From Clavibacter capsici (lineage in GTDB: Bacteria > Actinomycetota > Actinomycetes > Actinomycetales > Microbacteriaceae): 64,000 bases of DNA. A model generated the notes under the pieces. The model had not been told where the DNA came from. It worked only from the letters and a program-made list of their open reading frames with translations, and did not search any database. The DNA lies in contig NZ_CP012573.1 of NCBI RefSeq assembly GCF_001280205.1, positions 2,914,001-2,978,000 on the forward strand, written 5' to 3'. Position numbers and translations under genes: made by a program. Positions 1 to 64,000 of the stretch are shown one piece after another. Numbering within the stretch: position 1 is the first letter of the stretch; every line of letters starts with the position of its first letter.

Positions 1-2
1 CG

Positions 3-665
3 CACGCGCACGCGCCGGATCCCGAGGGCGACGTCGCGCGCGCCGCCTCCCCGCGCGCGCTCGGCCTCGTCGCCAAGTACGGCGTGCTGCTCGCGCTCGT
101 GATCATCGCGTCCGGCGGCGCGATCGTCGAGGACGCCGGCAGCACCTGGTCGGCCATCTACCTCTCGCGCGACCTCAGCGCCAGCGCCTTCGTCGCCGGG
201 CTCGGCTTCATCTCGCTGCAGGGGATGCAGTTCATCGGCCGGATGCTCGGCGACCGCATGGTCGACCGCTTCGGCCAGCGCGCCATAGCCCGCCTCGGCG
301 GCGTCCTGGTGCTCGTCGGCATGGGCGCGGCGCTCGCGTTCCCCAGCGTCGTCGGCACGATCGTCGGCTTCGGCGTGGCCGGGTTCGGCGTCGCGACCCT
401 CATCCCGGCCGCCATGCAGGCCGCGGACGAGCTGCCCGGCTTCAAGCCCGGCACCGGCCTCACGATCGTCGGCTGGCTGCTGCGGCTCGGCTTCCTCGTC
501 TCGCCACCCGTCGTCGGGGCTATCGCGGACGCCTCGTCGCTCCGCTTCGGCCTGATCTTCATCCCCGCCGCCGGCCTCCTCGTGCTCGTGTTCTCGCGCG
601 TGCTGGCGACCCGGCGCGCGCACCCGGCGGCGCAGTCCCTGCCTGCCGCGACCGCCTCCTCCTAG
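3..665 (+). CDS. MFS transporter, C-terminal part (5' end outside window)
   Basis: The frame is open from the first full codon to a TAG stop, so about 220 residues of a longer gene are present. They contain roughly six hydrophobic segments, as expected for the second half of a 12-helix major facilitator. The loop GRMLGDRMVDRFGQR resembles the conserved MFS loop motif that follows a helix in each half. The ATG at 84 lies inside the protein and is not taken as the start. The substrate cannot be told from this part. The family assignment is good; drug, sugar or other specificity is open. Confidence 0.8.
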   Translation, partial: HAHAPDPEGDVARAASPRALGLVAKYGVLLALVIIASGGAIVEDAGSTWSAIYLSRDLSASAFVAGLGFISLQGMQFIGRMLGDRMVDRFGQRAIARLGGVLVLVGMGAALAFPSVVGTIVGFGVAGFGVATLIPAAMQAADELPGFKPGTGLTIVGWLLRLGFLVSPPVVGAIADASSLRFGLIFIPAAGLLVLVFSRVLATRRAHPAAQSLPAATASS

Positions 666-768
666 GGGGCGCGCGGGGCGGATCCCCTCACGGGCTCCTG
701 CGAGTGCCGCCGCGCGCGTCGCCGCCCGCGGGAGGGTGGACGCGCACCCGCCAGCCGAGAGGATCCCC

Positions 769-1635
769 ATGTCCACCGACCTGCCCGGAGGGCTGTTCCC
801 CCTCGCCCACGACCTCACCGTCACGCGCTTCGGCTACGGCGCCATGCAGCTCGCGGGGCCGCGCGTGTTCGGGCCGCCCGCGGATCCCGACGCCGCCCGC
901 GCCGTGCTGCGCGAGGCGGTCGCGCTCGGGATCACGCACATCGACACCGCCGACTTCTACGGCCCCGGCCACACGAACGCGCTCATCGAGGAGGCGCTCT
1001 TCCCGTACCCGGAGCGGCTGCACATCGTGACCAAGGTCGGATCCCTGCGCGACGCGAAGGGCCGCTGGCCGCAGGCGCTCTCCGCCGCCGAGCTCCGCCA
1101 GGCCGTCTACGACAACCTCACGCACCTCACCCTCGACGTGCTCGACGTCGTGAACCTCCGCGTCGGCGCGTTCGACAGCCCGACCGACGGATCCATCGAG
1201 GAGCCGTTCACCGCCCTGGCCGAGCTGCAGCAGGAGGGGCTGATCCGGCACCTCGGCGTGAGCAACGTCAGCCCCGCGCAGGTGGCGGAGGCCCGCGGGA
1301 TCGCGCCGATCGTGAGCGTGCAGAACCACTACAACCTCGCCCGCCGCGACGACGACGCGCTCATCGACGAGCTCGCCGCCGACGGCATCGCCTACGTGCC
1401 GTACTTCCCGCTCGGCGGGTTCTCGCCGCTGCAGTCGGAGACGCTCGCGCGCGTGGCCGCCGACCTCGGATCCGCCCCGCTGCCCGTCGCGCTCGCCTGG
1501 CTCCTGCAGCGGTCGCCGAACGTGCTCGTCATCGCGGGCACGTCGTCGGTCGAGCACCTGCGCGAGAACGTGGCGGGCGCGCGGATCCGGCTGCCCGAGG
1601 ACGCGCTCGCGGAGCTGGAGGGGATCGGCGGCTGA
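769..1635 (+). CDS. Aldo/keto reductase family oxidoreductase
   Basis: A 288-residue TIM-barrel NADPH-dependent aldo/keto reductase. The start is the ATG at 769, six bases after a GAGAGG Shine-Dalgarno; an in-frame ATG at 736 has none. The catalytic Asp and Tyr fall in HIDTADFYGPG (D59, Y64) and the Lys in VTKVG (K89). The usual active-site His is not evident: the matching strand reads VVNLRVG, a variant of actinobacterial members I know of. HLGVSNVS and QNHYNL are family hallmarks on later strands. It stands alone between an MFS gene and a DUF202 pair. The substrate is unknown; a general aldehyde or ketone reductase is the safest description. Confidence 0.85.
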   Translation: MSTDLPGGLFPLAHDLTVTRFGYGAMQLAGPRVFGPPADPDAARAVLREAVALGITHIDTADFYGPGHTNALIEEALFPYPERLHIVTKVGSLRDAKGRWPQALSAAELRQAVYDNLTHLTLDVLDVVNLRVGAFDSPTDGSIEEPFTALAELQQEGLIRHLGVSNVSPAQVAEARGIAPIVSVQNHYNLARRDDDALIDELAADGIAYVPYFPLGGFSPLQSETLARVAADLGSAPLPVALAWLLQRSPNVLVIAGTSSVEHLRENVAGARIRLPEDALAELEGIGG

Positions 1636-1677
1636 CGGCCGGCCGCGCCCCCGGGCCGCGCACGGCAGGATGGCCGC

Positions 1678-62313: not shown

Positions 62314-62727
62314 TCAGCGGATCGCGTGCCCCGGGTGCTCCGCGTCGTAGCGCTCCCGCGACTCCGCGATGCCCGCGCGCTCCGCGAGAGCCCAGTCGGC
62401 GAGGGCCTTCACGAGGTGGGTGAGCCGGCTGCCCGAGGGCGTGAGCGCGTACGAGACCTGCGCGGGCACCGTCGGGAAGACCGTGCGGGCGACGAGGCCG
62501 TCGCGCTCCAGCCGCCGGAGGGTGAGCGTCAGCATGCGCTGCGAGATCCCCTCGACCGCGCGCTGCAGCTCGCGGAACCGCCGCTCCCCCGACGCCAGCT
62601 CGACGACGACGAGCACCGACCAGGTGTCGCCGACGCGGTCGAGCACGTCGCGGATCCCGCAGTCGAGGTGGTCCGCGCGGCCGCAGGGCTCGAGGTCCGC
62701 GGTCACCGCGGTGTGCGTGGGTGACAC
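62314..62727 (-). CDS. HxlR-family transcriptional regulator
   Basis: A 137-residue winged-helix protein. CGIRDVLDRVGDTWSVLVV, RFRELQRAVEGISQRMLTLTLRRLERDGLV and PAQVSYALTPSG are the HxlR signature; Cys15 and Cys23 (CGRADHLDC) could sense thiol stress, as in related QorR/YodB proteins. AAGGAGG lies seven bases before the GTG at 62727. It is divergent from an NmrA-type reductase, its likely target. Confidence 0.92.
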   Translation of the reverse strand: MSPTHTAVTADLEPCGRADHLDCGIRDVLDRVGDTWSVLVVVELASGERRFRELQRAVEGISQRMLTLTLRRLERDGLVARTVFPTVPAQVSYALTPSGSRLTHLVKALADWALAERAGIAESRERYDAEHPGHAIR

Positions 62728-62805
62728 GGGAGTGCCTCCTTGTGAGGGGTCGGGGGTCGCAGCACGCTCGGAGACATCACCGACAGAACCACGAGAGGTG
62801 GATCC

Positions 62806-63630
62806 ATGATCCTCGTCACCGGCGCCACGGGCCAGCTCGGCTCCGCCATCCTCCAGCACCTCCGCGCGACGGGGGCCGACGCGATCGGCAGCAGCCGCTC
62901 CGGCGCCGACGGCATGCGTCGGATCGACCTCGACGACCCCGCGACCGTCTCCTTCGCCGGCGTCGACACCCTGGTGCTCGTCTCGGCGGGCGAGGCCGAG
63001 GACGACGTGGTCACCGCTCGGCACGACGCCGCGATCACCGCGGCCGAGCGCGACGGCGTCGGGCACGTGATCTACACGAGCGTCGGGGCGGGCGGGGACC
63101 ACCTCGCCTTCGCGCTCGCGCACCGCTGGACCGAGCGCCGCCTCGCCCGGAGCCGCGTGCCGTCGACCGTGCTGCGGAACGGCCTGTACGCGGAGCTGTT
63201 CGGGGCCCTGCTCACGTGGCGCGGGTCGCGGCTGGAGTCGGCGTTCGGCGACGGGGCCCTCGCGGCCGTCGCGCGCGGGGACCTCGCGGAGGCGGCGGCC
63301 GTCGTCGCCCGCGCGCCGCAGGATCACGCGGGCCGTCGGTACGACCTCGTGGGCAGGCCCATCACGGCGGCCTCGGTGGCGCAGCGGGTGGGTGCGCCGC
63401 TCGACGGTCTCGACCTCGCTGCGCGCCGGGCGTCCTACGAGGGTGCCGGGCTGAAGCCGTTCCAGCCGGCGATGCTCATGTCGATCCACACGGCCGTGCG
63501 GCACGGGTTCCTCGCCGAGACGAGCGGCGACCTGGCGATGCTGCTCGGCCGGGATCCCGTGGATGCCGTGCAGGTGGCGGCCGATGCGGCGTCGGCCGCC
63601 CGCCCTGCGCCGGAACGACCAGCTGACTAG
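62806..63630 (+). CDS. NmrA-like NAD(P)H quinone-reductase-type protein
   Basis: A 274-residue Rossmann-fold protein: ILVTGATGQLGSAILQHL at the start, TLVLVSAGE, and HVIYTSVGAGGDH, the pattern of QorB/YtfG-type NAD(P)H:quinone oxidoreductases. GAGAGGTGGATCC precedes the ATG. With a divergent HxlR regulator of the YodB/QorR group, a role in removing quinones or other electrophiles is likely. The C-terminus is followed by an 8-base tandem repeat that duplicates the stop. Confidence 0.86.
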   Translation: MILVTGATGQLGSAILQHLRATGADAIGSSRSGADGMRRIDLDDPATVSFAGVDTLVLVSAGEAEDDVVTARHDAAITAAERDGVGHVIYTSVGAGGDHLAFALAHRWTERRLARSRVPSTVLRNGLYAELFGALLTWRGSRLESAFGDGALAAVARGDLAEAAAVVARAPQDHAGRRYDLVGRPITAASVAQRVGAPLDGLDLAARRASYEGAGLKPFQPAMLMSIHTAVRHGFLAETSGDLAMLLGRDPVDAVQVAADAASAARPAPERPAD

Positions 63631-63648
63631 CTGACTAGTCGGTGCGGG

Positions 63649-64000
63649 CTACTCCCCCGACTGCCCCGCGTCCGTCACCGTCACGTCGGTGTGCACGAAG
63701 TTGAGGTACGAGCGGGAGGCCGTGGGGCCGCGCTGGCCCTGGTAGCGGGATGCGTACTCGCCGGATCCGTAGGGCTTCTCGGCGGGCGACGACAGGCGGA
63801 AGAAGCAGAGCTGGCCGATCTTCATCCCGGGCCAGAGCTTGATGGGCAGCGTCGCGACGTTCGACAGCTCGAGCGTGACGTGGCCGGAGAACCCGGGGTC
63901 GATGAAGCCGGCGGTGGAGTGCGTGAGGAGGCCGAGGCGGCCGAGAGAGCTCTTGCCCTCGAGGCGCGCGGCGACGTCGTCGGGCAGCGTGACCAGCTCG
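63649..64000 (-). CDS. dcd: dCTP deaminase, C-terminal part (gene runs out of window)
   Basis: The reverse strand from 64000 to a TAG at 63651-63649 encodes about 117 residues: SSLGRLGLLTHSTAGFIDPG, FSGHVTLELSNVATLPIKLW, PGMKIGQLCFFRLSSPAEKP and YGSGEYASRYQGQRGPTASR. These are the conserved blocks of dCTP deaminase, including the catalytic Glu in TLELSN. In actinobacteria this trimeric enzyme often also cleaves dUTP to dUMP. The N-terminal part lies beyond the window. Confidence 0.95.
   Translation of the reverse strand, partial: ELVTLPDDVAARLEGKSSLGRLGLLTHSTAGFIDPGFSGHVTLELSNVATLPIKLWPGMKIGQLCFFRLSSPAEKPYGSGEYASRYQGQRGPTASRSYLNFVHTDVTVTDAGQSGE

Follow-up and report, generated by a model that had tools for sequence, protein, structure and literature searches.

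Why should a single short palindrome be written into a bacterial chromosome far more often than its base composition predicts? The question is raised by a stretch of 64,000 nucleotides of the Clavibacter capsici chromosome (NZ_CP012573.1, positions 2,914,001 to 2,978,000; hereafter the window), where a first-pass annotation had estimated about 160 copies of GGATCC against about 20 predicted from independent bases. The estimate was accurate: there are 162 copies, and base composition predicts 20.2. Markov models of order 1, 2, 3 and 4 predict 34.3, 35.4, 78.2 and 126.3 copies, the last two containing fragments of GGATCC itself, and dinucleotide shuffles of the window give 33.6 (standard deviation, sd, 5.3; maximum 45, n = 100). 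We regard the synonymous-codon shuffle as the fairest null for such a coding-dense genome. Genes were defined by a caller based on third-position GC and made for this analysis, not by the annotation, except in the two phages described below. Under this null, 142 coding sites are observed in the window where 24.9 are expected (sd 4.0; maximum 37, n = 500). We consider it likely, with a probability of roughly 70%, that GGATCC serves as a recognition word iterated in high copy number, maintained by weak selection or drive and read by a DNA-handling protein.

The excess concerns all codon phases, as had been claimed: 46 sites against 2.2 in phase GGA-TCC, 43 against 18.8 in nGG-ATC-C and 53 against 3.8 in nnG-GAT-CC. 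The accompanying claim that the sites force rare codons holds mainly for GGA and GAT (762 of 14,122 glycine and 554 of 9,995 aspartate codons called in a chromosome sample of 524 kb), because nGG-ATC-C is written with common codons. GGATCC has the highest z-score of all hexamers in the window under the codon shuffle, and it again deviates most when 331 kb of coding sequence from Clavibacter are analysed (916 against 161). When it is masked, none of its fragments is among the top 14 words of length 4 or 5, and its one-letter variants reach at most 1.5-fold in Clavibacter coding DNA. We also considered a longer fixed octamer as the true word and rejected it: each single flank of GGATCC is enriched (2.0- to 4.6-fold, with a preceding A the least) and the octamer AGGATCCT is itself not in excess (4.0 against 4.2). 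Gly-Ser pairs preceded by C and followed by T are spelled GGATCC in only 13 of 157 cases.

The excess extends across the chromosome, a check proposed with the original observation. The whole genome (3.24 Mb) contains 5,909 GGATCC, about one per 500 bases, and 162 copies of the reversed word CCTAGG. The codon-preserving excess is 5.3-fold in the 524-kb sample, and non-coding DNA has 147 sites where 42-56 are expected. These values bear on the simplest alternative, namely an artefact of codon usage, dipeptides or composition. High-order Markov models do shrink the ratio and other hexamers also deviate from the codon shuffle, but the excess survives this shuffle, is found outside genes, and is lower in other groups, 22 of which give ratios of 0-2.5 under the same null (2.9 in genome G021). 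Hence, we rejected this explanation, which we hold to be extremely improbable.

Alignments of 16 further Clavibacter genomes with this one, over the window and another region of 20 kb, cover 23-50 kb per genome (G002 was excluded because its contigs are too short). In them we scored codon conservation where the amino acid was kept. Codons were compared with the same codon elsewhere. GGA was retained in 454 of 522 cases where it overlaps GGATCC and in 99 of 404 elsewhere (87% against 25%). The corresponding values are 490/554 and 150/236 for GAT, 487/520 and 1799/2318 for TCC, 248/279 and 1605/2739 for GGG, and 180/233 and 2638/3836 for CGG. The control codon CCG, whose third base is out of the word in two of three placements, showed no effect (256/336 and 4503/5475). 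We then counted gains and losses by parsimony, with codon-matched rates and a midpoint root. With strict flanks there were 75 losses where 143.3 were expected, and 19 gains where 9.3 were expected; looser flanks, in data that overlap with the former, gave 116 against 195.2 and 28 against 10.9. Losses are thus about half, and gains 2-2.6 times, the codon-matched expectation. Losses number 130 against 257 when trinucleotide rates are used without codon matching. Because rare codons are better conserved within the word, losses are reduced and gains are raised, selection or a selection-like drive seems to act on the DNA itself. This agrees with the earlier proposal, made from the letters of the window, of a force on DNA and not on protein, which the presence of the excess in all phases and in non-coding DNA also supports. 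By our own arithmetic, the fixation bias (gain 2.6-fold, loss 0.59-fold) would imply scaled selection with a coefficient of about 1 to 2.5.

The position of the sites gives a second indication. We defined potential sites as places where a synonymous choice could create GGATCC. Where the chromosome sample is rich in sites, potential sites at 6-30 bp from another site are occupied in 42 of 136 cases, when permutations give about 0.47, and those at 400-800 bp in 131 of 235, when they give 0.46. A single statistic for the spacing trend over all 26 stretches was matched in 28 of 1000 permutations. The starts of genes, too, are less occupied, with 35 of 132 potential sites filled in the first 20 codons against about 0.45. 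Since occupancy is lower near another site, close sites seem to be partly redundant, even if the effect is modest. Redundancy at short range is contrary to what a mutation process acting independently on each site would produce.

This matters for the possibility that GGATCC has no function and is regenerated by a bias in mutation or in repair, of the Vsr kind or another. As in the repair of CCWGG in Escherichia coli, which the first-pass annotation had invoked as a model, a short-motif excess is produced at the level of DNA, and 11 of 18 Clavibacter, this genome among them, show a match to the Vsr domain, PF03852 (one of these matches is broken, and one is a fragment below the cut-off). Yet the route of gain is different. 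The 55 inferred gains come from GGACCC (15), GGAGCC (15), GCATCC (13), CGATCC (11) and GAATCC (1), complements included; 39 are transversions and a single one, from GAATCC, is the T-to-C change that Vsr-like repair of a deaminated 5-methylcytosine would produce. The distribution of genes differs too: 11 of 18 Clavibacter lack a match to a C5 methyltransferase (PF00145), and the seven genomes without a Vsr match have an undiminished excess (4,950-6,455 GGATCC). Together with the dependence of occupancy on distance to other sites, these results speak against the Vsr proposal, which we rejected, and make any such bias very unlikely.

All 18 Clavibacter genomes are rich in the word (3,964-6,455 copies), and the codon-preserving ratio is 4.7-7.2 in each of the 16 others that were sampled. 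Elsewhere in the family, 72 genomes, each from a different genus, contain 84-3,253 copies, the densest being G021 with 0.93 per kb. Within this genome, the observed/expected ratio of order 1 tracks local GC (r = 0.83 over 26 stretches). The three stretches with the lowest ratios (1.1, 1.6 and 2.0) may be islands: Gly-Ser is spelled GGATCC in 4/32, 5/29 and 7/28 cases, against 342/962 in the chromosome overall. On the two plasmids it is so spelled in 6/37 and 12/103 cases (80 of 146 kb were sampled for the second), the codon shuffle giving 2.3-fold for both and the order-1 model 2.2- and 1.1-fold. We rejected the possibility that GGATCC is a restriction site, because neither of two phages, each read over 50,000 bases, avoids it: coding sites number 22 in CMP1, where 13.4 are expected (sd 3.3; 54 of 55 listed coding sequences), and 12 in CN1A, where 10.1 are expected (sd 2.7; 43 of 60).

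In a second genus of the family the trait appears in an on/off manner. Among 396 genomes across the phylum, only this one and G479, of genus g111 in the same family, exceed 1.5 GGATCC per kb. Of 295 species of g111, 20 reach 1.0-2.35 per kb, and none of the remaining 275 exceeds about 0.65. These densities, for phylum and genus, are by-eye estimates based on counts and on rounded genome sizes. Seven of the 20 rich species were read in sequence, and each has a codon-preserving excess of 2.5- to 7.6-fold. Five of them pooled have 99 coding sites where 21.1 are expected (sd 3.6), evenly across phases; taken singly, G757 is at about 4.0-4.3 and G612 at 5.3. Two GGATCC-poor genomes of the genus gave 1.1 and 0.8.

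Poor relatives often over-use a one-letter variant, GGATGC (GCATCC on the other strand), which we measured on sampled stretches of genomes. In G421, a poor genome of g111, it is the top hexamer (175 against 75). It is third when G421 and G506 are pooled (312 against 147) and outside the top five in G506 alone (137 against 64). Codon choice follows the word. The minority aspartate codon GAT is used between G and GC in 58/91 cases in G421 and 48/65 in G506, compared with 31/103 and 30/162 between C and GC; in Herbiconiux the values are 19/28 and 8/88. GCA is used between G and TCC in 22/33 cases in G421 and 12/18 in G506, when its share of bulk alanine codons is 0.07. Clavibacter shows no such effect for GAT before GC (22/412 after G, 38/976 after C) and a large one before CC (217/303 after G, 57/372 in the comparison). 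In a pool of ten genomes chosen after the effect had been seen (G421, G506, two Herbiconiux, G023-G026, G028 and G036), GGATGC heads the ranking of hexamers, with 601 copies where 252 are expected. An independent check on four further poor g111 genomes gave, when pooled, 46 against 23.1 for GGATGC (sd 4.3) and 9 against 7.3 for GGATCC, with one of the four, G616, showing no enrichment in GGATGC (6 against 6.6). Two genomes in the upper range of low GGATCC density have GGATGC at 13 against 8.2 and 8 against 4.8. The rich genome G612 has GGATCC (18 against 3.4) and little GGATGC (8 against 7.6), and G757, with 1.0 GGATCC per kb, has both words (4.0- and 1.8-fold in 11 kb). There is no GGATGC excess in the two groups from outside the family, Micromonospora (1.2-fold) and Nocardioides (0.9-fold).

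Over 25 groups of the family, at a codon-preserving ratio of at least 1.9, GGATGC is over-used in 11 (1.9- to 4.0-fold), GGATCC in eight and both in one. Among the 17 groups with GGATCC below 1.9, ten have GGATGC at 1.9 or more. The rank correlation between the two excesses is -0.64, and -0.52 in the 21 groups left without four that are rich in GGATCC. As GGATCC-poor groups over-use a word that differs by one letter, the two look like dialects. A larger claim, tentative and to our mind slightly short of even odds, is that Microbacteriaceae have two largely exclusive dialects: GGATGC in several genera and in most of the poor g111 genomes read, and GGATCC in the 18 Clavibacter and in scattered species of g111. 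Both would depend on one reader, other than a genus-wide methyltransferase of a common family, whose changes in preference would have repeatedly rewritten thousands of sites, and G757, perhaps also G021, would stand between the dialects. G021 over-uses AGGATCCG, its top 8-mer, and CAGGATCC, both asymmetric extensions of GGATCC; in Clavibacter, by contrast, a preceding A is the least favoured flank. The excess of G021 is thus partly of a different kind, and hence we grade it as a possible intermediate.

Which protein could read or write the word? A natural comparison is with the highly iterated palindromes (HIPs) of cyanobacteria, and methylation had been among the causes first suggested for GGATCC. 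A methyltransferase present in the whole genus might modify GGATCC, or the GATC inside it, with methylation-directed repair or regulation accumulating the sites. Every cyanobacterial genome with a HIP is reported to have a methyltransferase predicted to read part of it, and the alternate HIPs include GGGATCCC, which occurs in two Synechococcus (Elhai, PMC4390886). All 18 Clavibacter do encode an ortholog of one PF01555 enzyme (the copy of G002 is cut by a contig end), a beta-class adenine methyltransferase related to M.RsrI and CcrM. However, orthologs are found in 12 of 14 genomes of other genera of the family that were read (none in G022 and G035), including some relatives that are rich in GGATGC and some in which neither word is. 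The presumed recognition region of the enzyme shares 69-78 of 87 residues with that of Clavibacter in 18 genomes from outside the genus, irrespective of the word used there (three of the 24 rows compared had no match to the search pattern). The ortholog of Arthrobacter citreus has 74% identity over residues 100-318, and 39 of 42 Arthrobacter genomes are reported to have an orphan methyltransferase for TTAA, a word that clusters beside dnaA (Blow et al., PMC4752239). TTAA is rare in Clavibacter (17 in the 524-kb sample). Two copies, 15-16 bp apart, nevertheless lie between dnaA and dnaN in all four Clavibacter where this gap was seen, and the gaps of two other genera have two and five (five of the ten stretches taken for the dnaA region lacked dnaA). 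Given the Arthrobacter ortholog and the paired TTAA, the enzyme is probably a TTAA orphan and not a writer of GGATCC, and we rejected it in the latter role. The TTAA pairs also suggest a link between this enzyme, conserved in the family, and the origin, similar to the one described in Arthrobacter. The other families are patchy in Clavibacter: PF00145 matches in seven of 18 genomes, PF02086 in two of 18 and PF02384 in ten of 17. The restriction-modification systems of Clavibacter are counted in PMC11856565, in whose accessible text methyltransferases are not detailed. The methylation proposal is therefore weakened, the sole genus-wide methyltransferase of the four families resembling a TTAA orphan, and we think it unlikely.

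The positions of the features are collected in Table 1. The region from 10.6 to 12.8 kb had been described as empty of GGATCC. This is inexact, as there are sites at 10592, 10635 and 11196, and the true gap is smaller. The low third-position GC (0.85) of the open frame that it includes suggests that this frame is acquired DNA. Two further observations concern the same genomes. In Clavibacter, the PF01555 ortholog has an Ala/Pro-rich insert of variable length between the DPPF motif and the remainder of the protein, with a similar one only in G028 among the relatives read. Clavibacter coding DNA also shows a strong avoidance of homopolymers of C or G (CCCCCC 16 against 490 expected from the codon shuffle, in the window plus stretches L101-L118 minus L103).

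Table 1. Positions of the GGATCC and TTAA features (coordinates of the window unless a stretch is named).
Feature	Position	Strand	Details
GGATCC palindromes, 162 sites	1..64000	.	mean gap 396 bp, coefficient of variation 0.90
Dense GGATCC stretch (example)	22998..23238	.	sites at 22998, 23114, 23136, 23233
Longest GGATCC-free stretch	11202..12826	.	includes open frame 12095-12622
TTAA sites between dnaA and dnaN	L147:1435-2009 and the dnaA-dnaN gaps of L246, L247, L251, L252, L254		

Two other kinds of reader deserve attention. GGATCC, and GGATGC in the relatives, could be recognized by a recombinational helicase-nuclease of the AddAB, RecBCD or AdnAB type, in the manner of Chi sites. The short GC-rich word, its over-representation in the core, its lower frequency in GC-poor stretches and plasmids, and the differences between lineages are all consistent with this. 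The Chi words described so far have no symmetry, and many favour one strand. GGATCC is a palindrome, for which a strand bias is impossible, and GGATGCC shows none overall between the two strands of the stretches read in two genomes (68 against 87 in G421, 45 against 52 in G506; one of eight stretches is lopsided, 9 against 29). A Chi-like role is a minority possibility that we deem rather unlikely. The word might alternatively be an uptake sequence that biased natural transformation accumulates in recombining core DNA. Dialects of uptake sequences are known in Neisseriaceae (PMC3630211), where over-used words, present in both orientations, show small differences between genera, and such sequences have been argued to arise gradually by point mutation (PMC1939737). 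Here too, gains come from several types of mutation, the core is richer than the plasmids, lineages differ by one letter and both orientations occur. On the other hand, GGATCC is much shorter, six bases being few for self-recognition, it is palindromic in Clavibacter, which would be unusual, and its one-letter variants reach at most 1.5-fold. We see an uptake role as having an outside chance.

We return to GGATCC as a recognition word. Thousands of chromosomal copies would be kept by weak selection, or a selection-like drive, acting site by site, because a sequence-specific DNA-handling protein works better with GGATCC nearby; a protein-binding site, also suggested at the outset, is thus a possible cause. 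One kind of reader protein, with a preference that differs between lineages, might account for the words of the family, by analogy with the alternate HIPs of cyanobacteria and the dialects of Neisseriaceae. It could act in recombination, DNA uptake, nucleoid organization or a modification of a kind outside the four methyltransferase families searched.

Several results weigh against this interpretation. The Markov models of order 3, which had been proposed as a check, and 4 leave ratios of 2.1 and 1.3 in the window. Nocardioides, outside the family, shows GGATCC at 1.9-fold. The codon shuffle still gives 2.1- to 3.5-fold in GC-poor stretches and plasmids, and their difference from the core is therefore one of degree. 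Losses from GAT to GAC (20 against 16.0) and from GGA to GGC (8 against 8.0) are not lowered with strict flanks. With trinucleotide rates instead of codon matching, gains are only 55 against 40, and those from CGATCC fall under expectation (11 against 20). The numbers of gains are small, and the midpoint root is uncertain. The deep branch of G013 and G014 has an excess of losses (10 against 3.7), which may reflect a wrong root. Occupancy depends only modestly on spacing, and at distances of 30 to 400 bp it agrees with the permutations. The 25 groups are related, some are pooled, most amount to about 20 kb each and their ratios are rounded; one pooled group of two genomes has both words (2.0- and 2.3-fold) and seven have neither. 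Finally, no reader protein was found in the families searched (PF01555, PF00145, PF02086 and PF02384).

How does GGATCC compare with known systems? HIP1, GCGATCGC, was described in 1995, and to our knowledge its function is still open. HIPs and GGATCC have in common a GC-rich palindrome, in severalfold excess at about 1-2 per kb, that is specific to lineages. Both have different over-used words in some relatives where the main word is low, the alternate here being non-palindromic and its groups not independent. GGATCC differs in occurring in Actinobacteria, in having a 6-mer core with loose flanks, and in showing no matching methyltransferase among the four Pfam families searched. It may work like HIPs, uptake-sequence dialects or Chi sites, these being analogies that establish membership in none. 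Since GGGATCCC, found in two thermophilic Synechococcus, is counted among the alternate HIPs (PMC4390886), the kind of phenomenon is already known. As far as our literature search reached, three aspects are new: the lineage concerned, an alternate that is not a palindrome, and the fact that no matching methyltransferase is apparent. The excess of GGATCC was not reported in the titles and abstract starts of the open-access literature searched, which is no proof that it is unpublished.

The family thus offers a second HIP-like case, in Actinobacteria, where on and off species occur within one genus (20 and 275 of 295), with a one-letter alternate and possible intermediates. The contrast in gene content between on and off species should point to the protein that reads the word, and would test roles in modification, recombination, uptake or chromosome organization. 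Studies of codon usage and of motifs in this family must allow for GGATCC and GGATGC.

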